From Metallosphaera tengchongensis (GTDB taxonomy: Archaea > Thermoproteota > Thermoprotei_A > Sulfolobales > Sulfolobaceae), in assembly GCF_013343295.1 (NCBI RefSeq), contig NZ_CP049074.1:477501-541500 (forward strand): a stretch of DNA of 64,000 bases. The letters run 5' to 3'. Under the pieces are notes generated by a model. It was not told where the DNA came from and made no database searches. It saw only the letters and a program-made list of their open reading frames with translations. The number at the start of each line of letters is the position of its first letter. Position 1 is the stretch's first letter. The position numbers were made by a program, and so were the translations under genes. Positions 20,413 through 44,478 of this stretch are shown piece by piece.

Positions 20413-20454
20413 CTTAGGGCTGGGAGGGGTTAGCTTAGGGCTGGGAGGGGTTAG
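20413..20454 (+). repeat. Perfect 2 x 21-bp tandem repeat
   Basis: Two adjacent exact copies of a G-rich 21-mer beginning CTTAGGGCTGGGAGGGG sit in the 325-bp space between rnz and the methyltransferase gene. There are only two units and no spacers, so this is not a CRISPR. The rest of the gap (20271-20595) contains only A/T-rich flanks. Confidence 0.9.
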
Positions 20455-20595: not shown

Positions 20596-21510
20596 GTGAA
20601 ATACGCTAAACTCAGCAACGACGAGATGTTCACCTCCATGGCTGAACTTAGAGCCCTCGTAGAGGGGGAAGTCCACTTCCTTACGGGAGTCGGTCTTTTC
20701 CAGGCTGGGGGAGGTATAGCCAGGAGGTCCTCAACGATCAAGGCTGTAGGGGAGGTCGTCTCCATCTCCAGCGACCCAGGGGAGGTCAACAAGGAGTTGA
20801 GGGGGAAGTGCTTCTCGATACAGCCCGATGTGATCTTGGGGGTAGACAAGGCCTCCTTTAAGTCCCTCTACGGCGAGCTGGTGGAAGGCGTTAAGACGTC
20901 AAGGGAGTGCCAGAAGTTGGACCTGATCTATACGGACGGAGTTTTAATAGCCGGGTTAAGGGAAGAGGAGAGGGACAGCAAAAGTCTGCTGGACCACTCC
21001 AGAAAGCCCTTCTCCCAGTCAGGGACCATGGACCCCTATACTTCCAGGCTGATGGTCAACCTAGCTAAGCCATCTGGTAAGGTCCTAGACCCCTTTGCGG
21101 GCCTGGGGTCTATCTTAATAGAGGCCTCATGGATGGGCTTTAGCTGTTACGGGCTAGACGTGGAGGTCAGGGCGTTGGAGAAGGCCAGGACAAATCTCAA
21201 TTTCTTCGGCCTAAACTGTGAGCTGAGCCTAGGGTCAGCTACCTCCCTCCCCTTTAGTGGGAAGTCCGCGGTCGTCACAGACCCACCTTATGGGAGGTCC
21301 AGTAACGCTAGGGGGATGAAACTCCGTGAGCTCTACGAGGGTTTCTTCTACGCGGTTCCGGATATCCTTGAGGGGAGGTTGGTCTTCGCCACCGACTCTA
21401 ACCTAGATTGGAGGGACCAGATAAGGTCTGCTGGTATGAGGGTCTTGAGCACCCACTACATTTACCTACACAAGAGCTTATCTAGGGCAATATACGTAGT
21501 GGAGAAGTGA
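20596..21510 (+). CDS. tRNA (guanine-10 N2) methyltransferase, Trm11/TrmG10 type
   Basis: A 304-residue SAM-dependent N2-methyltransferase. A THUMP-like N-terminal region (about 1-125) precedes a Rossmann domain with the SAM site DPFAGLGSILIEA (near residue 168) and the catalytic DPPYGRSS (near residue 233), the pattern that acts on exocyclic amino groups of guanine. Archaeal homologues form m2G/m22G at tRNA position 10. GTG start at 20596, where the protein begins MKYAKLSNDEMF; no ATG exists upstream in frame. It stands alone as a transcription unit. Confidence 0.82.
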   Translation: MKYAKLSNDEMFTSMAELRALVEGEVHFLTGVGLFQAGGGIARRSSTIKAVGEVVSISSDPGEVNKELRGKCFSIQPDVILGVDKASFKSLYGELVEGVKTSRECQKLDLIYTDGVLIAGLREEERDSKSLLDHSRKPFSQSGTMDPYTSRLMVNLAKPSGKVLDPFAGLGSILIEASWMGFSCYGLDVEVRALEKARTNLNFFGLNCELSLGSATSLPFSGKSAVVTDPPYGRSSNARGMKLRELYEGFFYAVPDILEGRLVFATDSNLDWRDQIRSAGMRVLSTHYIYLHKSLSRAIYVVEK

Positions 21511-22253
21511 GGTCAATCCTTCTTAGTCTCTAGCGGTCGGCGTTCTCCATTCTAGGACTAAATATCTTTGGATTTTGAAAAGAATATTTTAAAAATTTCA
21601 ATTCTATTTAGTTTTAACGTTGCCCTTAATAGAAAAAATGTAACCTAGTCTTTCAAGGTGGGGTAAAGGGTTTTAGACATAGGTATATTCCAGGGGACAG
21701 TCCCCTTTATTGAACTCCCCTCTCGTCGACCCCATGGATGAGGAGCTGGAACCGGTCTCTCCCGCAATACGCGGTCGTCAGAACAGTAGTTAGACTATCC
21801 CAAACGTGTATCAACATAGGGAGATAGGCCTAGTTAACGTGTAGGGCACTACTAGCCCAGACCTGGGATGCCAAACACCAAGGTAGTACTGCTGGTTATC
21901 AGCCCCAAAGACCTTAGTCCGCCTACAGCTGACGTCTCCCGTCCCCGACGTCAGCCTAACACCGTAACCGACACGGGCCAACTCATGAAAGCAATATAGC
22001 GAGGTAGTGTCAGAAAATAACGTCCACGGACCGAAAAAGCAAGTGAGACGTCAAGGCTAAAGCAACCTCGTCCTGGGAGCTAAGGTCTATCAGGACCCTA
22101 CTTTAAAAGGGTAGAGGTTACCGTGCGCTGGAGAGATGGTAGCCCCACCCATATCCTCGCCAAATGGAGGGCCTTACCATAAAACTTTTCCTAGTAAAGA
22201 AAATTCAATTTATATCAAAAAAGTTGTTGTCTGCACTTAGTTTTGAATTAAAG
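21511..22253. other. 743-bp gene-free segment with inverted repeats
   Basis: No convincing ORF is present on either strand. Two structured spots stand out: a perfect 9-bp hairpin GCTGACGTC/GACGTCAGC (21928-21936 and 21947-21955), and ATGGTA...TACCAT arms (22136-22141 and 22175-22180) with further pairing inside (GCCC/GGGC). A smaller CCCAG-CTGGG hairpin lies near 21860. I tested for RNase P and SRP RNA motifs and found none. It may hold an unrecognised structured RNA or a decayed insertion sequence. Confidence 0.4.
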
Positions 22254-22543
22254 TTTGCCCTGAGCGTTATAAGCCAAACCCAGTAACCTGTGCTGTTACT
22301 CACTTTAGGGGTCTCATGACGCAAATAACAGGGCCTACATAGACATTAAGTTTATATAGATGATTTCCCATCTCTCTTCGGATAGAACATGAGAAGGTAT
22401 CTCAAGTCTAAGAGGGCAATCTCAGGAGCAGTAACAGCCCTAATCCTAGTAATAGTGAGCGTAGCCTTAGCCTTAGCAGTAGCCGTCTTCGCCTTCGGCC
22501 TCTTCGGGACCTTCGGTAGTAGCGGACAAGTACAGGCAATCGG
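22254..22543 (+). repeat. 290-bp duplicated promoter plus pilin 5' coding region, copy 1
   Basis: Bases 22254-22543 are identical to 22951-23240, with no difference found by direct reading. The block covers 135 bases of upstream DNA and the first 52 codons of the pilin genes, and stops abruptly at CAATCGG. A third, diverged copy lies at about 25440-25730. The pattern suggests recent gene conversion or duplication limited to this block. Confidence 0.92.
22345..22388 (+). promoter_or_regulatory. Promoter of pilin gene 1 (shared by all three pilin genes)
   Basis: CATTAAGTTTATATAGATGA contains an archaeal TATA box (TTTATATA at 22351-22358) about 31 bases before the ATG, so the leader should be only a few bases. 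Upstream, TCATGACGCAAATAACAGG is conserved in all three pilin copies (also near 23010 and 25501) and is a candidate regulator-binding site. Confidence 0.6.
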
Positions 22544-22892
22544 CACACCTGTAGTGAACGTTTATAGTGTCAACAATAAAGCTGGCGTAGGAGTAGCAGA
22601 AGTCAGCGTTTCCCTTAACCTCAAGAACTCAGGTACTAACGCTGCGTCCATAACCAGCATCACTGTAGGAGACCTTACCAACTCTTCAGGCTTTAAGGTA
22701 ATCCCAGCCACCATACCAGGAGGATATGACGGTCAGGTCACGGTCTTGTTCAACGTTACTCCAAGCCAGCTGCCAGGGACTCTCAACACCACTAACATAG
22801 GTGGTTCTGTACCAATCACCATAGTCCTGAGTGAGGGGAGTCTCTCGCCCACCTTGACCCTACAAGGAGTGCTTAACTCCACTAAGTTCTAA
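22389..22892 (+). CDS. Archaeal type IV pilin, copy 1
   Basis: A 167-residue pilin precursor. A basic leader (MRRYLKSKRA) is followed by ISGAVTALILVIVSVALAL, matching the class III signal peptide cut by PibD after Ala10. The mature hydrophobic helix builds the pilus core. The remainder is Ser/Thr/Asn-rich beta-type sequence with N-glycosylation sequons. It ends in the conserved SVPITIVLSEGSLSPTLTLQ. Length fits Sulfolobales adhesive pilins better than archaellin. No assembly ATPase or membrane platform gene is near, so it must use machinery encoded elsewhere. Confidence 0.82.
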   Translation: MRRYLKSKRAISGAVTALILVIVSVALALAVAVFAFGLFGTFGSSGQVQAIGTPVVNVYSVNNKAGVGVAEVSVSLNLKNSGTNAASITSITVGDLTNSSGFKVIPATIPGGYDGQVTVLFNVTPSQLPGTLNTTNIGGSVPITIVLSEGSLSPTLTLQGVLNSTKF

Positions 22893-22950
22893 GCTATAGA
22901 GGTACGCAAGAGCTTTAAAACAAAGTTACCATTTTTTGAGAGTTTCACAA

Positions 22951-23240
22951 TTTGCCCTGAGCGTTATAAGCCAAACCCAGTAACCTGTGCTGTTACTCAC
23001 TTTAGGGGTCTCATGACGCAAATAACAGGGCCTACATAGACATTAAGTTTATATAGATGATTTCCCATCTCTCTTCGGATAGAACATGAGAAGGTATCTC
23101 AAGTCTAAGAGGGCAATCTCAGGAGCAGTAACAGCCCTAATCCTAGTAATAGTGAGCGTAGCCTTAGCCTTAGCAGTAGCCGTCTTCGCCTTCGGCCTCT
23201 TCGGGACCTTCGGTAGTAGCGGACAAGTACAGGCAATCGG
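22951..23240 (+). repeat. 290-bp duplicated promoter plus pilin 5' coding region, copy 2
   Basis: This is the second copy of the block described at 22254-22543, identical over its whole length including TATA box, start codon and the coding sequence for the signal peptide and core helix. Sequence on both sides is unrelated. Confidence 0.92.
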
Positions 23241-23574
23241 GACCCCAACAGTGAATGTTACCACGTCTAATGGTAAATACAATGTTACGGTAACTCTTGA
23301 TCTTAAGAACTCAGGCACCAATGCAGCCTCGATAACTAGCATTTCTATAGGAAATATCACTGAATCTACTGGCTTTACCGTTATTCCTTCTACAATCCCT
23401 GGAGGTTTCGACGGCATTGTGACTGTTAAACTGACTGGTCTGCAGAATCTTCCTGGCTCACTCACCAAGACTAATGTAGGCGGGTCTGTGCCCATAACTG
23501 TAGTGCTTAGCGAGGGGAGCCTATCACCCACGCTCACGCTACAGGGAGTCCTCAACGACACAAGTGCACCCTAA
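23086..23574 (+). CDS. Archaeal type IV pilin, copy 2
   Basis: A 162-residue paralogue of the preceding gene. The first 52 residues are identical, including the PibD site and core helix. The middle (about 53-120) differs in sequence and length. The end (IGNITES..., then SVPITVVLSEGSLSPTLTLQ) is again conserved in protein, though with many synonymous base differences. It thus pairs an identical 5' half with an older, diverged 3' half. It has its own identical promoter and is followed by T-rich DNA (TTTTTT near 23618) that may terminate transcription. Confidence 0.82.
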   Translation: MRRYLKSKRAISGAVTALILVIVSVALALAVAVFAFGLFGTFGSSGQVQAIGTPTVNVTTSNGKYNVTVTLDLKNSGTNAASITSISIGNITESTGFTVIPSTIPGGFDGIVTVKLTGLQNLPGSLTKTNVGGSVPITVVLSEGSLSPTLTLQGVLNDTSAP

Positions 23575-23693
23575 ATAAAGCTATTTTCTATTTTTAATAA
23601 AATTCTAGAAGATAATCTTTTTTGTACCCATATTAACGATCCATATTTATTACACAGGGTTCTATACAGATCCCACCACTCTGTTCCTTCACC

Positions 23694-24458
23694 CTACTGC
23701 CTGCTGTTGTTCTCCTCAGTGGCGAAGTCCTCCCCTCCAGCCACGACCCTCTGTATCTCAGCGTAAAGTTCGTCGAAGCCCTCCCCGGAGTTTGAGGACA
23801 CTGGCACCGGGGGGACCTCCATGTTCTCCAGGAGGGCCTTGACCAACTCAAAGGAGTATTCATCAATTACACCTAGGTGGTCTACTATCTCCTCCCCCTC
23901 CCCCCACCTCATCAGGGCGTCCAGCTCGTCCCTTGATAATAAGTCGACCTTGGAGAGCACGTTAACCTGGGGCATACCCAGCTTAAACCTCACTGAACTC
24001 GAGAGGAGTAGCAGGGAGACGTAACTCCTAGCCTCCTTGGCCAGGGAGGAGTCCATGAGGAAGACGTTCACGCTCTTGTTCCCACCCACGAGTAGGGAGG
24101 AAAAGTACCTCCCGGTCTCCCTGTAAGCGAAGAGCTCCACCTGACCTGGGGTGTCCACCAGCACGTAATTTGCCTCCACGCTGTCCAGGTCCCCCTTTAT
24201 CTCGCTTGCCTTCGTGAGCAGGAGGTCTATCGACGCTATCAACGAAGAGTTGGGCCCTAGTCCGTACCTCCGCATCACTTCGGTAGCGTCCACGTATTCC
24301 CTCACGTCTAGGTCCGGGTAATACGGCAGTCCCTCCACTGCCGGGTCCATGTTGATGACCGCCACGTCCATGTCCTGGTCCAGGAGGTAACCCTGGAACT
24401 CCTTCACCATGGTGGTCTTCCCGGAGCCAGCAGTCCCAGTGAAGAAAACGTAATACAT
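23694..24458 (-). CDS. GPN-loop GTPase
   Basis: A 254-residue GTPase of the GPN family, whose eukaryotic members assist RNA polymerase assembly. The P-loop is GTAGSGKTT, the family-defining loop is GLGPNSSL (near residue 76), switch II is VDTPGQVELF and the base-recognition motif is LSKVDLL. The C-terminus is acidic. It is divergent from prs with 51 bases between starts, and transcribed towards pilin copy 2. Confidence 0.92.
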   Translation of the reverse strand: MYYVFFTGTAGSGKTTMVKEFQGYLLDQDMDVAVINMDPAVEGLPYYPDLDVREYVDATEVMRRYGLGPNSSLIASIDLLLTKASEIKGDLDSVEANYVLVDTPGQVELFAYRETGRYFSSLLVGGNKSVNVFLMDSSLAKEARSYVSLLLLSSSVRFKLGMPQVNVLSKVDLLSRDELDALMRWGEGEEIVDHLGVIDEYSFELVKALLENMEVPPVPVSSNSGEGFDELYAEIQRVVAGGEDFATEENNSRQ

Positions 24459-24509
24459 GGGTTTACATGACCGCTTAACCTTTAAAACTTCACCCTTACA
24501 TTTTGCTTA

Positions 24510-25382
24510 ATGATAATAGTAGGAGGAACTGCGACCAACGGGATAGACGAGAGGTTGGCCAAGATCACCAAGTCTAAACTCGTGAAGGTAGTCCATAAGG
24601 TCTTTCCAGACGGGGAGTCCTACGTCAGGGTCCCTGAGCCATTGACTGGGGAGGAGGTTGCCGTTGTCCAGACTACGCAGCCCCCACAGAACAAGAACTT
24701 GGTCGAGCTACTCCTCGTCCTCGAGGCCTTGAAGGACACCGGGGCCACAAAGATAACTGCAGTTGTACCTTACTTGGCCTACTCCAGGCAGGACAGGAGG
24801 TTCCTGGACGGGGAGGCGATAAGTGTGAAGACCGTGCTCAACTTGATCTACGCTGCCGGGGCTTCTACACTGGTGGTGGTGGAACCACACCACCCTGAGT
24901 CCCTTTCCTATTTTCCGGGGGAGGCTAGGGTAGTGGATCCCATACCGGCCTTAGGTAGGGAGCTCAGGGGCAGGGTGAACAGCCCCTTCGTTCTAGCCCC
25001 GGACAGGGGAGCAGTGGACAGGGCGGAGAGGTTGGCCAGGGAACTAGGGTGTGGTTACACCTACCTGGAGAAAGAGAGGGACAGGATCACGGGTGAAATA
25101 AGGGTGAGGGGGATCTCCATAGGTTCACTCAAAGGGAGGGACGTCATCTTGGTGGACGACATAGTCAGCACGGGCGGGACGCTCGTCGAGGCGTCAAAGG
25201 TAGCTTACTCCCTTGGGGCGGAGGGCGTATATGCAGCAGCTGTCCACCTCCTCATGGTCAAGGACACTCTCACTAGGCTTAAGGAAGCTGGGGTGAGAGA
25301 CCTGGTTGGGGTAAACACAGTTGTGCCTCAAGACAACGTGAAACTGGTGGACGTATCTGACCTGATCGCCCTGAAGCTGTAG
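24510..25382 (+). CDS. prs: Ribose-phosphate pyrophosphokinase
   Basis: A 290-residue PRPP synthase, which makes the activated ribose for nucleotide, histidine and tryptophan synthesis. Motifs include the ATP-binding YLAYSRQDRRF, VVEPHHPESLSYF with its metal-binding histidine, and the PRPP loop VDDIVSTGGTL. It is shorter than bacterial enzymes (about 315), as is usual in archaea. The ATG is preceded by TTAA-rich DNA, suggesting a near-leaderless message. Confidence 0.95.
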   Translation: MIIVGGTATNGIDERLAKITKSKLVKVVHKVFPDGESYVRVPEPLTGEEVAVVQTTQPPQNKNLVELLLVLEALKDTGATKITAVVPYLAYSRQDRRFLDGEAISVKTVLNLIYAAGASTLVVVEPHHPESLSYFPGEARVVDPIPALGRELRGRVNSPFVLAPDRGAVDRAERLARELGCGYTYLEKERDRITGEIRVRGISIGSLKGRDVILVDDIVSTGGTLVEASKVAYSLGAEGVYAAAVHLLMVKDTLTRLKEAGVRDLVGVNTVVPQDNVKLVDVSDLIALKL

Positions 25383-25574
25383 CGCCAAGGTGGGCTTTAG
25401 GTGGAACAGCCTAGTTCCGTTGGGCCTTAAAGCGAAGTCTGTCCTGAGCGTTAAAACGCTTAACCGAGTCACCGGTACTCTCACTCACTCTAGGGGGGTG
25501 TCATGACGCAAATAACAGGACTTACATAGACATTAAGTTTATATAGATGATTTCTCATTATTTTCAGATACAAC

Positions 25575-26075
25575 ATGAGAAGGTATCTCAAGTCTAAGAG
25601 GGCAATCTCAGGCGCAGTAACAGCCCTAATCCTAGTAATAGTCAGCGTAGCGCTAGCCTTAGCAGTAGCCGTCTTCGCCTTCGGCCTCTTTGGCACCTTC
25701 GGTAGTAGCGGACAAGTACAGGCAATATCGACCCCTATAGTTAACGTTACTGGTACGAATGGTATGGCTCCATACAAGATAACTGTCACCGTAGACATCA
25801 AGAACTCTGGTACCACTCAAGCGTCAATAACGAGCATTTCAGTGGGTGACATTACAAACACTTCGCCAGAGTTATATTATAATGGAAAATTACAAAGCAA
25901 TATCCCAGGAGGTTTTGACGGCCCATTGTCCATAGTCATTTATTCCAATAATCTGCCAGGTACTTTAACTCCTACTAACATAGGCGGTTCAGTCCCAATA
26001 ACTATCATTCTGTCCGAGGGAAGTCTATCTCCCACCCTAACGTTGCAAGGAGTCTTGAACGCCACTGTTAAGTAA
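25575..26075 (+). CDS. Archaeal type IV pilin, copy 3
   Basis: A 166-residue member of the same pilin family, 2 kb from copy 2 and separated from it by the GPN GTPase and prs genes. The leader and core helix are identical in protein to copies 1 and 2, but a few synonymous base changes exist (CGCTAGCC for CCTTAGCC). The middle domain is again different (NTSPELYYNGKL), and the end SVPITIILSEGSLSPTLTLQ is conserved. The upstream block is related but diverged, while the distal TCATGACGCAAATAACAGG and TATA regions are kept. Confidence 0.82.
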   Translation: MRRYLKSKRAISGAVTALILVIVSVALALAVAVFAFGLFGTFGSSGQVQAISTPIVNVTGTNGMAPYKITVTVDIKNSGTTQASITSISVGDITNTSPELYYNGKLQSNIPGGFDGPLSIVIYSNNLPGTLTPTNIGGSVPITIILSEGSLSPTLTLQGVLNATVK

Positions 26076-26099
26076 CTCATGAACCAATACTAAACAAAG

Positions 26100-26145
26100 T
26101 CTTTTTTAATATAATTCTATTTTTACTAGATTCTATTTTTACTAG
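26100..26145 (+). terminator. T-rich tandem repeat after pilin 3, possible terminator
   Basis: After the pilin 3 stop come CTTTTTTAAT and two exact adjacent copies of ATTCTATTTTTACTAG (26114-26129, 26130-26145). Runs of T are the main archaeal termination signal, so this is a reasonable terminator between the pilin and the convergent gins15 gene. Confidence 0.5.
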
Positions 26146-26266
26146 GTTTCTCCAACAGGGACTTTGAGTCCTAAGAAAAGGAACTCTAAGTCTAAAAAAG
26201 GGTCATCCGCACGCATCTCCATGGCTACTCTCCCCTCTGTACTCCCCTCCAACAAACCCTTCTACT

Positions 26267-26695
26267 TCAAGAGGACCTAGCAGGCTCAACCAAGTCCTGT
26301 AGCCAGAGGTAGAGAGCGGTCTTAGCTGGAGTCAAGAGGTAGTCACCAGGTTTCAAGGAAATCCCCCCGTGCGCCACCTCTGTCTTCACGTGGCACAGTA
26401 CCTTGTTCCCCTTGGTCACGTAGCCTCCAGTCAGTAAGTTGACGTAGAACTCCCTCATCTTTGTCACTACCTCCTGTATCCACGAGTCGAAGCTACTGTC
26501 AAGCCTCTTCCCCTCGACCACCTTCATCAGCCTCACCTCGAACAGGGACTCTGCTATCTCTGAGTACACCTTCAGCTCGGCGTCGTGGACCTTGTCCCTC
26601 TTCCCCCTGACCTTCCTGAATGCAGAGATGGCTTCCTCAGCCTCCTCCTCCGTTATCACCTCAGCCTCCTCTCCCTTAAGTTCCCTAGCTAGCAC
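26267..26695 (-). CDS. gins15: GINS complex subunit Gins15
   Basis: A 142-residue replication protein of the GINS 15/51 class. An N-terminal helical A domain (EEAEEAISAFRKVRGKRD...) is followed by a small B domain (about 95-140: KVLCHVKTEVAHGGISLKPG). In S. solfataricus the orthologous gene lies next to priS and a PCNA gene, exactly the order here. GINS bridges the MCM helicase to primase and polymerase. It starts 1 base after the priS stop, at the end of a three-gene replication operon. Confidence 0.85.
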   Translation of the reverse strand: MLARELKGEEAEVITEEEAEEAISAFRKVRGKRDKVHDAELKVYSEIAESLFEVRLMKVVEGKRLDSSFDSWIQEVVTKMREFYVNLLTGGYVTKGNKVLCHVKTEVAHGGISLKPGDYLLTPAKTALYLWLQDLVEPARSS

Positions 26696-26696
26696 G

Positions 26697-27665
26697 TCAT
26701 CTAACGTAGTAGGTCACCTCACCTAGGCCCTTCATGTACCCAAAAAGGGCGTAACCGGCGTGCATCTCCGTTGGTACACCTCTCTCCAGTACAAACTTCT
26801 TGTCCAACAGGTTAAACTCCCCCGACAGGTAGGGCTTAAACACGGCGACACCGGTGAAGGGGGAGAGGGAGAGGTCGTACCTGAACTCCTCCATTTCCCT
26901 TACCACCAGTGAGCTCTTTGCGTGTATTGACCCAGGTATCCTGACCAACCTGTGTACGTCAACGGTCACCTGTTGGTCTACCTCTACACCCTTAACACCC
27001 CTAGCCTTCCTCCCTGGCCACCCTGGGTCCCCCTGTTGCCCTGCCTCGGGTGAGGACTCCCCCTTCACGTACTTCACCACCTCCCTCCTGTCCTCTGAGT
27101 CCATGAGCGCGCAGTCCCCTGTGCACTCCACCAGCACGTGGAACCCCCTGTTCCCTGAGAAGTAAACTCTTGGCCTCAGGTCAAAGTCCTCCTCCAGTAT
27201 ATCCCTCAAGTCCCTGGCATCCTCCCACGCCTTCCTCATGCACTCCTCCCCTATCTCCACGTATTCCTTGGACTCGACCCCGTGCTCTGGGCACTTGTCG
27301 GCGACCTCCCTACCGCACACGGGGCAGAAGACGATCCTCCTCACCTCGCACAGGTCGTCCGCGTCTATGTCAAACTGGAGGTCCGACCCCATCCACCCCT
27401 TCTCCTCCATGTCCTTAGCTGAGGGCCTCTGGTACTTGGCTGAGGAGTAGAAGACGTGCCCCGGGGTCTCCCTGACTAGGAACATCTTGAGCTCTAGTGG
27501 TGAGGCGAAGGACATGTGTCTAACGTAACTCCCACCGTTCAAAGGTTGGAAGCCGAACTCCCTGAGCTCCATATCGAAGGGTAGCTCGAGCTCGGCCCTC
27601 TCGTAGTATTCCCTGAAAAGTGTCCTAATTATCTTATTCTGCCCTGGGGGCAATATAGAAATCAC
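26697..27665 (-). CDS. priS: DNA primase small (catalytic) subunit
   Basis: A 322-residue archaeo-eukaryotic primase catalytic subunit. The metal site is LQFDIDADDL near residue 95, followed by a zinc knuckle (CPVCGREVADKCPEH). SGNRGFHVLVE and VTVDVHRLVRIPGSIHAKS are nucleotide-binding family motifs. It makes primers and, in Sulfolobus, also longer DNA with PriL. It overlaps the upstream pcna gene by 32 bases and is followed directly by gins15, so the three proteins should be made together. Confidence 0.95.
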   Translation of the reverse strand: MISILPPGQNKIIRTLFREYYERAELELPFDMELREFGFQPLNGGSYVRHMSFASPLELKMFLVRETPGHVFYSSAKYQRPSAKDMEEKGWMGSDLQFDIDADDLCEVRRIVFCPVCGREVADKCPEHGVESKEYVEIGEECMRKAWEDARDLRDILEEDFDLRPRVYFSGNRGFHVLVECTGDCALMDSEDRREVVKYVKGESSPEAGQQGDPGWPGRKARGVKGVEVDQQVTVDVHRLVRIPGSIHAKSSLVVREMEEFRYDLSLSPFTGVAVFKPYLSGEFNLLDKKFVLERGVPTEMHAGYALFGYMKGLGEVTYYVR

Positions 27666-28368
27666 CGTACCCTTCCTGGGGTAGCTGGAACCTGAGCTTG
27701 AGGGGGAGCTGTGAACCGAACATCACCTCCACTACGTCGGAGGAGTTCCTCATCTTAGCTGTGCTAAACACGTAGTTCATACCGTAACTGCTGGACGACT
27801 CGGTCCCTGAGGCCTCCAGTAGGGTTCCTGCCTCCTCAGACAGCTCAATCCTTGTCCTCCCGACGTCACCCTCCACCGAGAGGGCCAGCTTCCCCTCCTG
27901 GGACGAGAAGTTTACCGAGTCCCCCATATCTGCCAGTACCGTCAACGCCTCGGAGAAGGTCGAGGTCAGCAACTTCGCCTTGAAGGGGAACTCCAGCTTG
28001 ATGGAGGGCGTCTTGGGCTCTTCCCCTGAGAGGAGGGGCAGGTGGAAGGTCCTCTCGAAGTCCCCGTCGAGGTTGATGAGCATCCTGTCCTCAGTGGTCT
28101 GGAAGGAGAGGCTGTCAGTCTTCTTGACGTACTTCAGGGAGTTAATGACCTCTTCCAGTTTTACCGTGACCAGCTCCTTCTCCCCAGACTCGTACTCGTG
28201 GAAGTAGCCCTGGGGGATGAACACGTCCACGAACGCCACCCTAGCCGGGTCGATACCGCTTATCCTCAAGCCCTCCTTGAGACCTAGGACCGTGACCTCA
28301 GGCATTAGGCTCCCTAGGGTCTTGAATATGGAGGCTATGGACAGGGCATCAATTACCTTAAACTTCAT
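27634..28368 (-). CDS. pcn2: DNA sliding clamp subunit (PCNA2-like)
   Basis: A 244-residue PCNA with the usual two-domain clamp fold; the interdomain loop is near residues 115-130. Crenarchaea build a heterotrimer from three PCNAs. The one encoded beside priS and gins15 in S. solfataricus is PCNA2, and synteny suggests the same here. Recognisable stretches are GLRISGIDPARVAFVDVFI and the C-terminal LPLKLRFQLP. It is first in the operon, with ATG at 28368 about 70 bases from tRNA-Ile. Confidence 0.92.
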   Translation of the reverse strand: MKFKVIDALSIASIFKTLGSLMPEVTVLGLKEGLRISGIDPARVAFVDVFIPQGYFHEYESGEKELVTVKLEEVINSLKYVKKTDSLSFQTTEDRMLINLDGDFERTFHLPLLSGEEPKTPSIKLEFPFKAKLLTSTFSEALTVLADMGDSVNFSSQEGKLALSVEGDVGRTRIELSEEAGTLLEASGTESSSSYGMNYVFSTAKMRNSSDVVEVMFGSQLPLKLRFQLPQEGYGDFYIAPRAE

Positions 28369-34667: not shown

Positions 34668-35438
34668 ATGATATACAACAAGTACCAACTTCCCAGGGAA
34701 GGGGAGATCCTAATAGCTACTGTCAAACAGGTTTTTGACTACGGTAGCTACGTTTCCTTGGACGAGTACGGGGGCCTCCAGGCTTACCTACCGTGGAGCG
34801 AGATCAGCACCAGGTGGGTAAAGAACATAAGGGACGTGGTCAAGGAGGACAGGAAGATAGTAGTCAAGGTCATTAGGGTCGATAGGAGGAAGGGGACGGT
34901 AGACGTCTCACTGAAGAAGGTGAATGACGACGACAGGAAGAAGAAGAACGCCCAGTGGAAGAGGATACAGAAGACGGACAAGATCCTCGAGCTAGTTGCA
35001 CAGAAGCTGAAGAAGAGCGAGAAGGACGCTTGGGAGCAAGTAGCTTGGAAGCTTGAGGACAGGTACGGGGACGTCTTCAACGCTCTGCAGAAGGCGTTGA
35101 AGGAGGGGGACAAGGTACTCCTTGACGCTGGAGTCCCTGAGGTCTGGGTGAAACCCCTCCTCGAGGAGGCGTCAAAGCACACTGAGGAGAAGAAGGTCAA
35201 GGACAGCAAGGTGGTCCTGTTGAAGACCCTAGACCCAGAGGGTGTAGAGAAGATAAGGAAGGTCTTCGACCTGGAGGACGAGGGTGACATAAAGATTTTC
35301 ACCATAGGTGCACCGAGGTACAGGGTCGAGGTGTCTGGGACTGACCCCAAGTTGGTCGCCCAGAGGCTAGAGGAAGTTGTCCAGAAGATAATCGAAAGGG
35401 CGAAGGAGGAGGGGGTCTCAGCGGAGGTCGCAAAATGA
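34668..35438 (+). CDS. eif2a: Translation initiation factor aIF2 alpha subunit
   Basis: A 256-residue alpha subunit of the aIF2 trimer that delivers initiator tRNA. The S1 domain (about 8-85) has EGEILIATVKQVFDYGSYV and LKKVNDDDRKKK. A helical domain (90-170) and a C-terminal alpha/beta domain (175-256) that binds the gamma subunit follow. The position between rps27e and nop10 is widely conserved in archaea. Confidence 0.97.
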   Translation: MIYNKYQLPREGEILIATVKQVFDYGSYVSLDEYGGLQAYLPWSEISTRWVKNIRDVVKEDRKIVVKVIRVDRRKGTVDVSLKKVNDDDRKKKNAQWKRIQKTDKILELVAQKLKKSEKDAWEQVAWKLEDRYGDVFNALQKALKEGDKVLLDAGVPEVWVKPLLEEASKHTEEKKVKDSKVVLLKTLDPEGVEKIRKVFDLEDEGDIKIFTIGAPRYRVEVSGTDPKLVAQRLEEVVQKIIERAKEEGVSAEVAK

Positions 35439-35985: not shown

Positions 35986-38202
35986 ATGGCTCTTAAGGAA
36001 GTCTCCAACGCCTTGAGGAAAACTGTTGTTGTCGACCTAGTCTCAGTACTAGGTATTTCCCTAGTCTCCATGGTAATACGCGCCCTGAGCGCTGCCTACC
36101 CCCTCTCCATCAACGGGTTCGACTCATGGTACCTCTTTTACAACGCCCTACTCATAGCCCAGGCCCACGGTAACTGGTACGCAGTCCCTCCTGACGTCCA
36201 CTCTTGGTTCCCCTCAGGTTTCTTTATAGAGCTCGGGGACACCATAGGCCTGCCATTCATTTCGGCACTCCTCGCCCTACCCTTCTACTCAACCTATGGC
36301 CCAAACGCCGTGTATACAGTTGTACTCTTTCTAGACCTAGCGCTAGCAGGTCTTGGCGTCGTGGCGACCTACCTGGCTGTTGAAGGGCTCACCAAGAGCA
36401 AGGTCGGTGCAATAGTTGCTTCCCTAATCATAGCTGTCTCCCCTGCGTTGACTTACAAGAACTTGATAGGCGGACTCCCCAAGACTTCTTGGGGGGGCGT
36501 CTTCGTCCTCTTCTCCATATACCTCTTGAACCTTGCCATAGAGAGGAAGAAACCGTGGTATGGGGCCCTAGCCTCTGTACCCCTGTTCCTAGCGGAGGTA
36601 TCCTGGGGCGGTTACACCTACATCGACATAAGCCTCCTGGCTGCCGCTTTCCTCCTGATCCTCCTCAACAGGAACGACGAGGTCACAGCGAAGTCCTTTA
36701 CCCTGATGGGGGTCTTCACTGGGTTCCTAACGTCCTTTGCCCCGAACAACATAGGCTTCCTCTCAGGTGCAGCACACGGTCTTTCAATGGTCTTGATCTC
36801 CCTTCTCCTCTTCCTGGACATCTACCTCAAGAAGGTCATCCCTAAGGAGAGGGTCATGAGCAAGTCCTTGATACTCTCATCCCTGATCCTGTTTATCTTC
36901 GTCTTGGCCATGGACGGTCTGTCCGTTTTAGGGAAGACGCCAATACCCTCAAGGTATTACGCTATCGTAGACCCGTTCTTCCAGTTCACGGTACCCATCG
37001 ATAGGACGGTGGCAGAGTACATCCCCCAGTCCATAACTAGCATGTTAGTGGATTTTGGGGTCGCCATCTTCTTGTCCATCATTGGGATGTACTACTTCAT
37101 AAAGGAGGGGAACCTAGCTGGCATGTGGTTACTAGTCCTGGGAGTTGCCAGCATTTACGGTACTTCTGAGCAACCCTACCTCTTTAACTACACTGCCTAC
37201 ATGGTAGCTCCCCTCGCCGGAGCTGGGGTCTACTACGTTGTGTCTAGGCTGAGGCAGTCCAACGTGAGGGTCGCCCCAATACTGCTGCTCGTGGTCGTTG
37301 GGGTGTCCCTGGTAGCTGACGCGGGGTCAGCCATAGTTGCGAGCAACACCCCTAACGCCATTATCACTTCAGCTTCACCTTACCCCATCCCGAACTACGC
37401 CTGGGTCACCACGTTGGACTGGCTGAGGTACGACACACCCTCCCACGCCTTTGTCCTGAGCTGGTGGGACTACGGTTACTGGATAGAGGTCTTGGGGAAC
37501 AAGACGGTAATAGACGAGAACAACACCCTCAACGGTACACAGATAAGGCTCATGGCCGAGATCTTCCTGAACAACGAGACCTACGCTGCCTACGTCCTTG
37601 AGCACGACTTCCACGTCTACCCTTACGGGAGCCAGAACTACACTATCCCAACATATATAGTCGCATATGACGCGGTCACAGTGTACAGGGGGGAGGGTTT
37701 CCTGGGCTACCCGACCAACCTCGGGGGCCAGTTCCTTGGGTACACGTCTAGCCTGGGTGATATAGGGAAGGCAATGGGGGCTATGACTGTGATCGCAGGT
37801 TACCCCGTCCAGGACTACGTGAACATCACCCTGTTGAACCAGACTGAGACCCAGATAGCGACTGAGTTCCAGTCCAACCCAACCCTAGCCCAACAGCTGG
37901 TAGGGCTAGTGAGTAACTCCTTCCCATTCGCTTGGACCCATAGGGCTTACCAGTCCCTGATAGTCAACATGTTCGTTGAAGGTCTCCAAGTACAGGGTTA
38001 CCCAGTGGTGGCACCGTTCTCTGGAGGGATAACGAGTACTGGTGTGAACCTGGGGTCACCTCTACCCCAAGTGAGGATGGAGTATTTCCAACCAGTCCAG
38101 ATATCCATGGCCCCACTTTACGGCAACGGCCAATACGAAGTGTACGTCATGGTGGTGGTATACCAGTTCGTACAACCCGGCACGGTGATCCAGGTAAGTT
38201 AA
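35986..38202 (+). CDS. aglB: Oligosaccharyltransferase AglB (STT3 family)
   Basis: A 738-residue membrane enzyme that moves the dolichol-linked glycan to Asn of NxS/T sequons on S-layer proteins, pili and binding proteins. The N-terminal half has about 12-13 helices. The first external loop carries GFDSWYLF (Asp46, the first metal-binding motif). The hallmark WWDYG sits at about residue 492 in [12 protein letters not shown]. The C-terminal globular domain follows. It lies 850 bases upstream of slaA, which encodes the major glycoprotein substrate. Confidence 0.95.
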
Positions 38203-39056
38203 GTAACATGTTTCTCCCTTGTCCGTTGGACTCGTGACACGTGCTATGTCTTGGGGTTCAGGTTAGTCAGGGAATTGGGCTCTTGGGTCTTTTGCTAACT
38301 TGTGACCTACACCAGAAATGGGCTCCGTGGTCTAGATCGGTCCGTCTGGTATGGGCTGAGGGTACCTAAGGGTCCGAGATAGGCGGGTGGGATGAGTCAC
38401 CTCCCTAGGTAGGACAGCCACGAGGTGACTACATACATCCCTTGAGACTGTCATAGCGGGAGAGGTAGTTAGTACAAAGTTGGGGAAAGCCCCGTCCTTC
38501 AGGCTGGGATGACAAATTGTAAACTCTTTTTCCCTATACTTCTTCATCACGGCAGATGGGCTAAAAGAGTGGGAACAAAACCAGAGCTACGGTCTCAATG
38601 GGAGTTCCTACACAGCCCCTATTCTAAGCCTAATCCACTAACGTTCTTGCTAGGTGGGGTAGCAAAAGTCCCGTACTACTAAGTAGGTTCAAGGTTAAGT
38701 CCGGTGAAGGGCCTACTCCAACGCCCAGTTTCCAGCGTTAGGTCCCTGGAGGTTCTCAGGACTCACTTCAGTCTGTAAAGTACGGCAACCATTCTCTGGA
38801 AGCGGTCACTCTTAACGGAGAGACTAGGGTAAAATGAATACCGTTGGACAACTCTCAGTTATACTGTACTAAGTATAACGGCTGCCTCGATGATATTCCC
38901 ACGTCCAACCCTACCGTCAACGGCGTAAAGCCTGTTGTTACTCCCCAACGAGGAGGACGGTGACGTAGCTACCTTTACCCATTTGGGGTCTGTATACAGA
39001 TGTAGTCAATCATCTTTTATATTATTACCCCTTATGGTGATTTCAGTGAAAAAAGT
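38203..39056. other. 854-bp gap upstream of slaA with an IS right-end trace
   Basis: No ORF is supported. GGGGAAAGCCCCGTCCTTCA followed by GGCTGGGATGAC (about 38484-38513) resembles the right end of an IS605/IS607-type element. The remainder is unassigned. The last 60 bases hold the slaA promoter. Confidence 0.4.
39012..39056 (+). promoter_or_regulatory. slaA promoter and ribosome binding site
   Basis: ATCTTTTATATTATTACCCC (39010-39029) contains a TATA-like TTTATATT about 33 bases before the ATG. GGTGATTTCAGTG lies 10-20 bases before it and can serve as a ribosome binding site, so this message probably has a short leader. Confidence 0.5.
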
Positions 39057-42000
39057 ATGAACTCTAAGGCGATAAGATATCTATCGCTCCTCCTTGTTTT
39101 ATTGATGGGAGGTTCATTCCTATCTGGTGTTATAACTCAAGCGCAGACTAGCGGAACAGCCGGAGGTGTAACAATATCGGTCAGCTCGAACTGGGTGAGC
39201 TATGGTCAAGTGGTTTTAGTGTCTGTCTATGACCCCAACGTCCCCCAAAGCGCTGTAGGTGCCAAATATGTAGAGGGTAACATCACCATTTCAAACGGCA
39301 CAGTGACTTTACCCTTGAACAGTACTGAGTTTGAGAACCTTTCATCTGTTTACTACCTTCAAAACGGAGGTCACTACTTCTGGTTCTTTATCACCATGAC
39401 TCCAGTCATGAGTACTCCTACAGTGACCGTAACTCCTTATAATGTAACTGTAACTAAAAAATTGACCATAAACGGGAGCACTAGTAATGTTATGTTAGTG
39501 AACAACAATTTAGTTGCGTCCATGGGAACTAAAAACGTACTGCATTTTACGATACCCTCTTCGTTCCCAGATAACCTGATAAGTATCTATGGTATGACAG
39601 TGAAAGGAGGTGGCTACGTTAACGTTACAAGCCTGTATTACTTTAGTACTAGCAAGACCATAACTATCCAGTACAGCACAGGTGCAAGCGTCACCATAAA
39701 CAACTACGAGGCTAACTCCGGCAACTATCAAGTAACGGCTATTAGTTCACAGTCTACAGTACCGCTGAACTCGACCTGGACAGTATTGGTAAATGACCAG
39801 ATAATGCAAGCTGACCCATTAGTGGGCGGCAATGGAGGTTATACAGTATATGTGATGAATAATTATCCCGGTGTGTATTCCCCAATCATACAGAACGTGT
39901 CTTACGTAGCGATTAAGAACGGTGTGTATGTAAACACGACCATATTCTCCGATAACCCCATATCCAATGCACTATCAATGTTCGGCTACGGCAATGTATA
40001 CAACGGTAACTATACTATGTACACTTCATCTGTAGTTACTAACAGTACCTATGCCACGTTAACACCTGGAGGTAAAACACCTTCTTACTCTCCGTCCAAA
40101 GTTGAACCTTATCAATATTATAACCTGACGATAAGGGATAGGTATTTCACCACCTCAACCCCGATCACGATTTACTTTAGCGATTGGTTAGCAAATAACG
40201 CATCCGTGTCCGTAACCGGGACAATTAAGGAGACTCTGCCACAACCGTTGAAGCTATCCGTACTTAAGGGGGAGAACCTCACAGTTGACGCATTTGACAA
40301 CATATCCAACTTCAGCGTTAATGAGGCCATACCGGTTAAAGTTTCACTCTTGGGCCAAAACGGTGAGACATTTAGTAGTAAAGTAATAAATTTGAGCGAG
40401 ACTTACGCAGGTTCAGGAGTATTTAGTATGCCTGCAGTGCTTGAAATAGGTATGAATTATAGTATAGGCCCCAATTCTGCGGGCACGGAGATCGTTATCA
40501 CATTGCCACCCTATGATTTCAGCAATACATCAATCTTGGTTACTGCTACCAATGATATTGGGGCTTCGTTCTATTATCTAGGACAAAATAAACCGGTTAA
40601 CGTATCCACTCCAGGCCAGATAGTTGTGGGACAGCCGAGTCTGGAGCCTGTACCTCAGGTGACAGTGTTACCTAATGTCAGCACTGGTGTAGAGTTAGCC
40701 TACTACGAGCCTAACCTAGCCTTTGGGACTCCCACGACCCTTAATGTGCAGCCCGTGGCAACTAAAACTTACGACGATATAGTGTATAATGGAGTTACTA
40801 TAGCGTTGGCAAATATCACTTATGTGTTACCTAACGGAACTTCCAACACGGTACCCCTATCCAATGCAGGCATCAACATATTGTCCTCCGCTAATGGGAA
40901 CGGGACGTTCTTCATAAACCTACCGAGGACTACGATAGTAACCGAAGTTCTAAAACTTGGCTACATACCTTCCGGGACTCAGTTAACCTTCAAGATATAT
41001 GACGAGTTTGCAGCCCAGACCCTCACAGTGACCTACAAGTTCCAGACTATTGCCCCGGTCATTACCATAGAGACCCCTACATCAACTTCCTTCTCCTCTG
41101 GTGAGGTCGCATACCTGCCTCCTCTGCCGTATAACGTTCTACCAGAGAAACACTATATACTGATCAACGTTACGGATCAGTTATACGCAAATAGCATACC
41201 TTCCACGGCTCTCCAGGCCACGTTGAATGTAATTGTTGAAAATGCCTCAGGCAAGGCAATAAAAGGAACTTCACCAATTCTCGTCACGTTAACGGAGACC
41301 GGACCTGGCACAGGCTTGTTCACTGGTCAGATTTACTACACTGTAGTGAAAAATAGTAACGGTTACTATCTAGATATTAATGGTATAAGTGTAACAAACC
41401 TTGAGAACGTTATAAACGGCTTCTTAGTGTTCAATTATACCTCTCCGTCTTCCAACCAGCAAGTTAACGCAACTGCATCGTTGAAGACCTCTACCTACAC
41501 TCTTACAGTAAACCAGACGTCAGCTAACCCTGGCGCTTATGTGAAAGTGACAGTTAATAGCCCAGGACTTGTGGAGGGGGCCAATATGAGGTACACTGGA
41601 TACCTCACTGCCTACGTGCAATACGTACCTTGGAACGGATATAGCTCGACGTTAACTCCGTCAGTAGCCCCAATATCTTTGAGTGAAGATGGTGCAGGAT
41701 CTCCATTGTTCGTTGGAACTGTGGTCCTAGGTAACTCCAGCGTGGTGACCTTGAATAACCTCACAAGTATAATTAACATGGCCGGTTATACTGTGGCTCC
41801 AGGATCAGTAGTCCTAGTGAACTCCAACGCGAGTATAGGTCCGACGAGTACCTCCTCTTCAATTACCCCATACTATCAGCAGCAGACAATATCAATTAAT
41901 GTCCCGTCCTTGACAGTGTCTATCCTCAACCCGTCCCCTGCATCCCCGTTCGCCAAGCTTGAGATTGAGCTGAACTCCACGTTATTTAACCTGTATTCTC

Positions 42001-43184
42001 ACCCATCTCCTGGCAACTATACTTCAATATCTGGATCGGGAGCCGAACTCTTACTGGAAAATATAATATCCACGGTAACCACTCAGCAGTCCCAGCAATT
42101 GATAACTGGAACCGCCTTGATAAGCTCAAGTGACACCAGCTTCTACTACAACAACTCCATATGGGTGATTAGTGTCCCCATGACTTTGTGGAGCGGAACT
42201 CCTGGGAGTTACGGTGTCCCCATCAACGTGAACCTCACTGACTTGTTGCAGGTCACTCATAACGTCTACACGGTACATACCGTCGAGGTCCCCAACGTGT
42301 CCACCGGAACTGTGAGCATAGTTTCAGCGTACGCAGTCCCATCGGTGTCTGGTCAAGTTGCCACTCTCCAGATCAACGGTCTGGTGAAACCTATAATATC
42401 CGTTTACTTTAACAACCAGAACATAACTCAGTCCGCAGCAGGAGCAGTCCCATACCCCAACACCACTGCAGGTGAACTCGTAAACATCACGGTTTACGCC
42501 CCAGATGCAGTGGATAACCCCAACGTACCTGGTTCAGGGTCGACCTTCAACGTTACCATACTGAACACAGCGAACGGTGAGACTACGACCTTGGTCCTCA
42601 GCCAAGAGACCAAGATAGTCTCAGGTGTTCCAATCGGCACTCCCTACTACACAGGTCAATTGAAAGTCGTGGAGCCTGATGTGTTCACTCCTGGAGTGTC
42701 AGGTGAGATATCAGCCTCTCCTGGGTTAGTCAATAAGGTTCTAGTAAACATGAACGTGGTAGAAGGAACATACTTCAACTACAATGGTCTAAAACAACAG
42801 CTGACTATGAAGTCCTCCACCTACTTCTACGTGGGAGTTATCAAGGTTAGCGTCTTGGTGTCCCACTTCACCTTGACCTACAACGGGACCCCAACGACCA
42901 GCATGATGGTAGGTAAGACCTACAGTATACTCTTCAACGTGACTGACAACGGGAACGTGAATGAGACGGTCTACGGAACGCTAGAGGTACTTCTTAATGG
43001 AACACCAGTCCAGCCAGAGGTCATTGCCGTAGTTACATTAGCCCCAGGACAGAGTACTCAGGTAGGTGCCCTGTTCACTCCCACAATGCCCGGTAACTAC
43101 ACCATAGTATTCATACCCTTCCAGAACAACCTACTTAGCATACCCTACAACCAGGGACTGACTGAGGTCGTAAGCGCAAGTTAA
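39057..43184 (+). CDS. slaA: S-layer protein SlaA
   Basis: A 1375-residue secreted protein that forms the outer S-layer lattice. A signal peptide (about 1-30, with LLLVLLMGGSFLSGV and cleavage near AQA/Q) is followed by long Ser/Thr/Asn/Val-rich beta-sandwich sequence with dozens of NxS/T sequons and no membrane anchor, as in Sulfolobales SlaA (1200-1450 residues). It is followed by slaB after 43 bases, the standard arrangement. Codon use is more A/T-rich than in neighbouring genes. Sequence of SlaA evolves fast, so assignment rests on size, composition and synteny. Confidence 0.9.
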   Translation: MNSKAIRYLSLLLVLLMGGSFLSGVITQAQTSGTAGGVTISVSSNWVSYGQVVLVSVYDPNVPQSAVGAKYVEGNITISNGTVTLPLNSTEFENLSSVYYLQNGGHYFWFFITMTPVMSTPTVTVTPYNVTVTKKLTINGSTSNVMLVNNNLVASMGTKNVLHFTIPSSFPDNLISIYGMTVKGGGYVNVTSLYYFSTSKTITIQYSTGASVTINNYEANSGNYQVTAISSQSTVPLNSTWTVLVNDQIMQADPLVGGNGGYTVYVMNNYPGVYSPIIQNVSYVAIKNGVYVNTTIFSDNPISNALSMFGYGNVYNGNYTMYTSSVVTNSTYATLTPGGKTPSYSPSKVEPYQYYNLTIRDRYFTTSTPITIYFSDWLANNASVSVTGTIKETLPQPLKLSVLKGENLTVDAFDNISNFSVNEAIPVKVSLLGQNGETFSSKVINLSETYAGSGVFSMPAVLEIGMNYSIGPNSAGTEIVITLPPYDFSNTSILVTATNDIGASFYYLGQNKPVNVSTPGQIVVGQPSLEPVPQVTVLPNVSTGVELAYYEPNLAFGTPTTLNVQPVATKTYDDIVYNGVTIALANITYVLPNGTSNTVPLSNAGINILSSANGNGTFFINLPRTTIVTEVLKLGYIPSGTQLTFKIYDEFAAQTLTVTYKFQTIAPVITIETPTSTSFSSGEVAYLPPLPYNVLPEKHYILINVTDQLYANSIPSTALQATLNVIVENASGKAIKGTSPILVTLTETGPGTGLFTGQIYYTVVKNSNGYYLDINGISVTNLENVINGFLVFNYTSPSSNQQVNATASLKTSTYTLTVNQTSANPGAYVKVTVNSPGLVEGANMRYTGYLTAYVQYVPWNGYSSTLTPSVAPISLSEDGAGSPLFVGTVVLGNSSVVTLNNLTSIINMAGYTVAPGSVVLVNSNASIGPTSTSSSITPYYQQQTISINVPSLTVSILNPSPASPFAKLEIELNSTLFNLYSHPSPGNYTSISGSGAELLLENIISTVTTQQSQQLITGTALISSSDTSFYYNNSIWVISVPMTLWSGTPGSYGVPINVNLTDLLQVTHNVYTVHTVEVPNVSTGTVSIVSAYAVPSVSGQVATLQINGLVKPIISVYFNNQNITQSAAGAVPYPNTTAGELVNITVYAPDAVDNPNVPGSGSTFNVTILNTANGETTTLVLSQETKIVSGVPIGTPYYTGQLKVVEPDVFTPGVSGEISASPGLVNKVLVNMNVVEGTYFNYNGLKQQLTMKSSTYFYVGVIKVSVLVSHFTLTYNGTPTTSMMVGKTYSILFNVTDNGNVNETVYGTLEVLLNGTPVQPEVIAVVTLAPGQSTQVGALFTPTMPGNYTIVFIPFQNNLLSIPYNQGLTEVVSAS

Positions 43185-43227
43185 AAAATTTTTATATTAT
43201 TTTTAAAATTATGAAAGGTGAAAATGA

Positions 43228-44478
43228 ATGAAATATAGTTTCCTTCCCTTAGTATTACTGGTGTTGATAGCTTCCCCGCTTTTGGCCTTATCTGCAGCTA
43301 CTACCATAACTGTTACGACGCAACCGGTGTACCATCCTGGACAGACGGTTTTCATAGAGGGGACTGCGCCGGCTAACACTCAGGTCGGAGTGACAATATA
43401 TAACCCACAGGGTAAAGCTGTCTTCTCTAACGTGACTACCAGTAACGCCAACGGTGTGTACTCCCTAAAGGCCTTTACTTTCCCAAGTCAGGCTACTACG
43501 ACTCTACCTTACGGCACTTACACTGTACAGGTTGGGACGAGCACTGGGTTCACGAACTCCACTACGTTCCAGTTCCTCCCTCTAACTGCTACAGTTAGGG
43601 TTTTGGTAGTTAACCCACAGGGAGTCCCCGTTAGCGGGGCTACTGTCACAGCAGATAGCGTTTCGGCGACAACTAACTCTTCCGGGGTAGCAGTGCTATC
43701 TCTACCCACAGGGAACTACACCCTAAAGGTGGTCCCACCTTCGCCTTATGCCCCGACTAGCGAGTCCATAAGCGTAGTAGCACCGAATATGTATAGTTTC
43801 ACTGTAACAGTACAGATCCAGGAGCTGTCCTTGACCGTGGTTAAGGCTGTCTCACCTAACGTTAACCTACAGGACCTGACTTCCGGTACTGGGATCACCA
43901 TGACTGGAGGGACTACCCTTACAATTTGGAGCACTGTAACTTTCGCTGGAGCTCCAATATCTACAGCTACTGTCATCGCCATGTATAACGGGACGAACTA
44001 CACGGCTACTTACATGAACGGTTATTACGTAGTGAACATATCTGTTCCTAACGTACAGTATGAGACCGACTTGATCCTTACGGCCTCTTACTCAGGAATG
44101 ACATCCACTCCTGTTGTGCTACCACTGACCGTTAACCTCAACGAGCAGAAAGTGATAGAGAGCTTAAACGCTACTGTCACTTCCCTTAGTCAACAGGTAA
44201 CGTCACTCTCGTCAACTGTAAGCTCCCTATCGTCTACTGTGTCCTCCCTGTCATCGACGGTCTCCTCCTTGTCAACTACCCTAGGCAAGTTGAACTCTAC
44301 CTTAGGCTCGTTGCAACAGAGCGTGAGCACATTGAGTAGCGAGTACACAACGTTGAACAGTAAGGTCAACGCGTTGTCCGGTCTGTCTGGAACCGTGGAT
44401 ATAGCCCTGGCAGTGAGCATCATAGCTATAATTATTTCAATAGTGGTACTAATACTACTCTTTAGAAAGGTAAGTTAA
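43228..44478 (+). CDS. slaB: S-layer stalk/anchor protein SlaB
   Basis: A 416-residue protein that fixes the SlaA lattice to the membrane. It has a signal peptide (1-24), beta-sandwich domains (about 25-300), and a coiled coil with repeated SSLSSTV units (about 315-385). A C-terminal membrane helix (IALAVSIIAIIISIVVLILL) ends in RKVS. The coiled-coil stalk and tail anchor are diagnostic. A Shine-Dalgarno AAAGGTGA precedes ATG 43228, downstream of A/T-rich DNA that could hold its own promoter. Confidence 0.92.
   Translation: MKYSFLPLVLLVLIASPLLALSAATTITVTTQPVYHPGQTVFIEGTAPANTQVGVTIYNPQGKAVFSNVTTSNANGVYSLKAFTFPSQATTTLPYGTYTVQVGTSTGFTNSTTFQFLPLTATVRVLVVNPQGVPVSGATVTADSVSATTNSSGVAVLSLPTGNYTLKVVPPSPYAPTSESISVVAPNMYSFTVTVQIQELSLTVVKAVSPNVNLQDLTSGTGITMTGGTTLTIWSTVTFAGAPISTATVIAMYNGTNYTATYMNGYYVVNISVPNVQYETDLILTASYSGMTSTPVVLPLTVNLNEQKVIESLNATVTSLSQQVTSLSSTVSSLSSTVSSLSSTVSSLSTTLGKLNSTLGSLQQSVSTLSSEYTTLNSKVNALSGLSGTVDIALAVSIIAIIISIVVLILLFRKVS

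Follow-up and report, generated by a model that had tools for sequence, protein, structure and literature searches.

The three complete genes for archaeal adhesive (Aap-type) pilins predicted in the 64,000-bp stretch of Metallosphaera tengchongensis DNA analyzed here (the window) have probably been shaped by recurrent segmental concerted evolution, with gene conversion as the agent. Within one sharp-ended segment, the paralogs are closer to each other in this genome than to their orthologs, silent sites included. The best reading of this pattern, as judged from sequence comparisons, is that a familiar evolutionary process is seen here in a new setting, the archaeal pilins; the freely accessible literature searched yielded no description of gene conversion among them. 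The three genes, designated c1, c2, and c3, and their parts occupy the following window positions, with codons 1-51 referred to as the tail and the diverged remainder as the head.

22254-22543, + strand: first copy of the identical block, holding promoter, signal peptide, and core helix; all 290 bp match 22951-23240
22351-22358, + strand: TATA box TTTATATA of c1, read in the sequence
22389-22892, + strand: pilin gene c1, 167 aa, predicted Aap-type type IV pilin; ORF with matches to 8q30 by phmmer (E 1.7e-10) and Foldseek (E 5.8e-7)
22544-22892, + strand: head-domain part of c1, diverged; synonymous saturation versus c2 and c3, predicted beta head from residue 48
22951-23240, + strand: identical block, copy 2; exact 290-bp match to 22254-22543
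23048-23055, + strand: TATA box of c2, read in the sequence
23086-23574, + strand: pilin gene c2, 162 aa; ORF matching the pilin-family profile
23241-23574, + strand: head-domain part of c2, diverged; synonymous saturation
25440-25729, + strand: older diverged block, copy 3; identity to copy 1 is 78% for the distal promoter, 90% for the proximal one, and 95% for codons 1-51
25538-25545, + strand: TATA box of c3, read in the sequence
25575-26075, + strand: pilin gene c3, 166 aa; ORF matching the pilin-family profile
25730-26075, + strand: head-domain part of c3, diverged; synonymous saturation

The original prediction held that c1 and c2 share 290 bp without a single difference across the promoter and the start of the coding region, and pairwise comparison confirmed this: positions 22254-22543 and 22951-23240 are identical, and of the 290 bp in the block, 135 lie upstream of the gene and 155 are coding, amounting to 51 codons and 2 nt. 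No differences are present at the approximately 40 synonymous sites of the tail (pS 0.00). When c3 is included in a three-way alignment, the agreement between c1 and c2 extends over 29 polymorphic columns, a run that was matched in none of 20,000 shuffles, the longest shuffled run being 15. The two blocks form direct repeats 697 bp apart, and simple crossing-over between them could delete or duplicate those 697 bp. Copy 3 had been described as an older form of the same mosaic, and this was borne out by the graded identity of its promoter and tail to those of copy 1 and by its tail pS of 0.17 versus c1 and c2, compared with 0.64-0.72 outside the tail. The head of c3 is 64% identical to that of copy 1, and the limits of its block are nearly equal to those of the c1/c2 block.

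In the heads, synonymous sites are saturated among all three copies (pS 0.64-0.78). Between c1 and c2, 47.8 of 60.8 synonymous sites differ in the middle part and 19 of 25.5 differ in the C-terminal block, or about 0.75-0.78 per site, and their heads contain no exact common run longer than 11 bp. As the original prediction stated, the C-terminal block is conserved in protein and rich in silent changes (pN 0.08-0.12, pS 0.64-0.75 across the copies). The middle domain had also been called unrelated between copies, which proved not to be so, as it is diverged yet homologous and alignable (pN 0.27-0.36). The suggestion that synonymous and nonsynonymous change be compared across the three segments was followed, and the resulting disparity, a tail pS of 0.00 and 0.17 versus head values of 0.64-0.78, together with the same signature in relatives, lends good support to the proposal that gene conversion lies behind the mosaic. 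With synonymous sites saturated, these figures are no guide to diversifying selection in the window heads.

Identity of this kind could in principle be held in place by selection on the 5' DNA, through regulatory or codon constraint and without any recombination. The tail protein is indeed nearly invariant across the five other Metallosphaera genomes compared, a point in favor of such selection, but the silent sites of the tail differ by around half or more between these congeners (pS 0.48-0.89), and by 80% between the paralogs of one of them, G002 (tail pS 0.80), though the tail proteins of that pair are virtually identical. Given such silent divergence behind an almost unchanged tail protein, codon constraint does not account for the c1/c2 identity, and constraint at the codon or DNA level is excluded as the cause of the block. 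The promoter is likewise not conserved between species: the 135 bp upstream has no visible counterpart in congeners apart from the TATA box, and a TTTATATAG-like box is found upstream of most congeneric pilins. With tail silent sites this divergent in congeners and the promoter block absent there, the identity is genome-specific and recent. The congener silent-site and promoter figures thus refute selection on the 5' DNA for this genus, and we regard that explanation as extremely improbable. A still simpler possibility, an assembly error in which one copy was built from the reads of the other, carries a negligible probability: the genome is a single contig of 2,176,897 bp with 99.99% completeness, each copy possesses its own flanks and its own head, and the same pattern recurs in independent assemblies of other genera.

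The setting of the genes bears on a third account, a recent partial duplication or import, arising either by recent copying of the promoter-tail block or by duplication of an entire gene, after which one head gave way to a foreign allele from another strain. On their 3' sides, c1 and c2 have flanks that bear no relation to each other, the genes around them have been reordered and pilins sit right at the junctions, and a saturated head difference could have been imported, all of which would be in keeping with such an event. However, the c1-c3 heads cluster together and not with those of other species, forming one clade in the head tree (support 0.968) adjoining G005, which makes them in-paralogs; c3 represents an older round with nearly equal block limits; and syntenic relatives have been homogenized in place without any new duplication. 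We therefore consider a recent duplication or import unlikely. The tail DNA tree within the genus was poorly resolved and was left unused for direction.

All five congeners carry the genes that surround the window pilins in the order mbl(-) trm(-) prs(-) gpn(+) pcna(+) priS(+) gins(+), or in the mirror image of this order. Relative to these five, the window (20596-28368) shows in-place inversions of three blocks, trm, gpn-prs, and gins-priS-pcna. Of the four junctions of this rearrangement, the two inner ones are occupied precisely by pilins, one by c1-c2 and the other by c3. The pilin locus of the window has no syntenic counterpart in the other Metallosphaera genomes, where the pilins occupy other loci. 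The pilins may have had a part in the rearrangement, but simple inversion between c2 and c3 does not account for it, as the two are in direct orientation. An outer junction, between mbl and trm, carries two exact tandem copies of a 21-nt unit (20413-20454). Elsewhere in the window, an aIF2-alpha-like gene (34668-35438) is flipped relative to its neighbors when compared with G003 and G004, and inspection of the ORFs at 35986-44478 shows S-layer-like genes, large ones and coiled-coil ones, after an oligosaccharyltransferase-like gene, placing genes of cell-surface type near the pilins.

The reading of segmental concerted evolution draws further support from the family. Fourteen Sulfolobaceae genomes possessing at least two such pilins were surveyed, and tail pS is 0.17 or lower in ten of them (the genome of the window, G000, along with G010, G014, G017, G019, G024, and G041-G044). 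In four of these ten (G019, G041, G042, and G043), identity or near-identity of the copies covers most of the gene, and six are mosaics with diverged heads. Little or no homogenization is seen in the remaining four multi-copy genomes (G002, G012, G020, and G022), indicating that not every genome undergoes the process. Near-identity of the DNA extends to the 3' end as well in G010 and, to a lesser degree, in G044 and G017, with only the middle differing. The two pilins of G042 and the two of G043 lie between flanks that are orthologous and collinear on either side at 88-90% identity, yet pilin identity is 100% within a species and 81.6% from one species to the other. Within-species identity at orthologous positions is a textbook sign of concerted evolution, and the conserved positions in these sister species show the pilin pair to be older than its homogenization. 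DNA between inverted pilins is flipped within collinear flanks in two comparisons, G017/G024 (3.6 kb at 86%) and G042/G043 (1.1 kb at 91%), the flipped stretches being the interiors of L047/L048 and L055/L056; crossing-over between copies, as well as conversion, would appear to have taken place there.

The assignment of c1, c2, and c3 to the Aap-type pilins is based on sequence and on a structural model. A Pfam search of the three proteins returned no significant family, but they match archaeal pili of solved structure, the best match being the Aap pilus of S. acidocaldarius (8q30; phmmer E 1.7e-10). The AlphaFold model of c1 (pLDDT 81.5) consists of a helix at residues 2-45 and strands at 48-166, and its best PDB match in Foldseek is again 8q30 (E 5.8e-7). 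A class III signal peptide with a prepilin-peptidase site precedes the hydrophobic helix (KSKRA/ISGAVTALILV), and the mature chain of 8q30 begins at aligned pilin residue 11. The hinge between tail and head in 8q30 is formed by G51-I53 (PMC11178815), and the identical block ends close to it, at codon 52. The genome also encodes assembly components, a T2SSF protein of 615 aa followed by a T2SSE ATPase of 572 aa, which are 41% and 54% identical, respectively, to the AapF/AapE-position genes that the two G020 pilins enclose. This AapF/AapE-like platform is the only T2SSF platform in the genome. The pilins of the window thus resemble S. acidocaldarius AapA/AapB (PMC11178815, PDB 8q30) in pilin family and fold and in the presence of AapE/AapF-like machinery in the genome. 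In S. acidocaldarius (presumably G020), however, the machinery sits between the two pilins, which show no homogenization (tail pS 0.69), whereas c1-c3 lie far from it.

The original prediction interpreted the mosaic as a possible surface-variation system that would allow the exposed domain to be swapped under a constant promoter and core helix. In a dedicated system of this kind, heads would be shuffled between copies at high frequency, with the tail block acting as a recombination anchor. In Neisseria pilE/pilS, a single expression site receives variable cassettes from silent copies that lack a promoter. The window shares with that system a constant N-terminus, a variable head, and conversion between pilin copies, and the 290-bp direct repeats 697 bp apart, with promoter and core constant and heads variable, are what such a system might use. 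Other genomes offer some further encouragement, in that G010 has homogenized gene ends on both sides of a variable middle, as do G044 and G017 to a lesser degree, and the middle of one G010 pair has a pN of 0.15 versus a pS of 0.05. However, c1-c3 are all complete, and the part copied between them is the constant part and not the variable one. The count of further paralogs that had been called for was run genome-wide and yielded exactly three complete genes of the c1-c3 type, each with its own TATA box and start, plus one distant pilin; DNA, whole-pilin profile, and head-protein searches of the genome revealed no silent, promoterless, truncated, or partial copies, and so the silent donors that are a hallmark of pilE/pilS are absent. 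A second hallmark, homology on both sides of the variable part, is absent in c1/c2, present in G010, and partly present in G044. Since the c1 and c2 heads share runs of at most 11 bp, there is no 3' anchor for head swaps; moreover, the heads are saturated and not recently mixed, and ORF inspection showed no dedicated recombinase adjoining the pilin genes. The cassette or antigenic-variation reading is therefore unsupported in this genome, and we judge it very unlikely. Elsewhere in the family a switching system may exist, though this genome provides no positive evidence for one.

Two other elements were noted in these searches. The distant fourth pilin-like gene (145 aa) is located at G000:C1:266219-266545 (L042). 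A short match between G000:C1:2135165 and the c1 upstream region was rejected as a pilin copy, being a diverged intergenic match of 66 bp at 79% identity; the corresponding 66 bp belong to a 740-bp stretch without a convincing gene that lies upstream of c1 (21511-22253).

Under segmental concerted evolution, an old duplication in this Metallosphaera lineage would have given rise to the three complete Aap-type genes, and ectopic homologous recombination between the copies would then have repeatedly overwritten their 5' half, which carries the promoter, signal peptide, and core helix. The enzyme responsible is presumably RadA. Only two conversion events are visible in the window, the most recent apparently between c1 and c2 and an earlier one involving c3. 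Conversion is expected to last only where copies stay alike: the helix, under strong protein constraint, would remain a good recombination substrate, and the heads may be too diverged to serve as one, such that tracts end at the hinge, the constant tail and promoter are locked in, and the heads are left free. The likely outcome would be several pilins with differing exposed surfaces, presumably co-expressed from the same promoter and feeding one Aap assembly machine, with pressure from viruses or adhesion as a plausible reason for the head differences.

A comparison with S. islandicus is instructive, as pilA1 and pilA2 are also paralogous Aap-type pilins. According to the published account (PMC7217056), these genes are needed for infection by SSVs and SIRVs, the two copies are identical in 7 of 12 strains, and signs of diversifying selection are present. 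The S. islandicus pairs described there are near-identical over the whole gene, unlike c1-c3, which share only promoter and tail and have old heads. It is possible that virus pressure also acts on the pilin heads considered here. A broader proposal, which we advance tentatively and regard as rather unlikely, is that Sulfolobaceae pilins constitute a slow surface-diversification system, in which a recombinogenic constant tail and promoter (constant ends in some genera) is combined with heads that are lost, duplicated, or re-assorted and with intervening DNA that is flipped, the whole being driven by viruses that enter via pili. As pilins of this family are required for infection by several Sulfolobus viruses (PMC7217056), diversification of the heads bears on host range. 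Homogenized tails, free heads, and flipped DNA would also provide a natural locus, one with a clear phenotype, at which ectopic gene conversion can be measured in Crenarchaeota.
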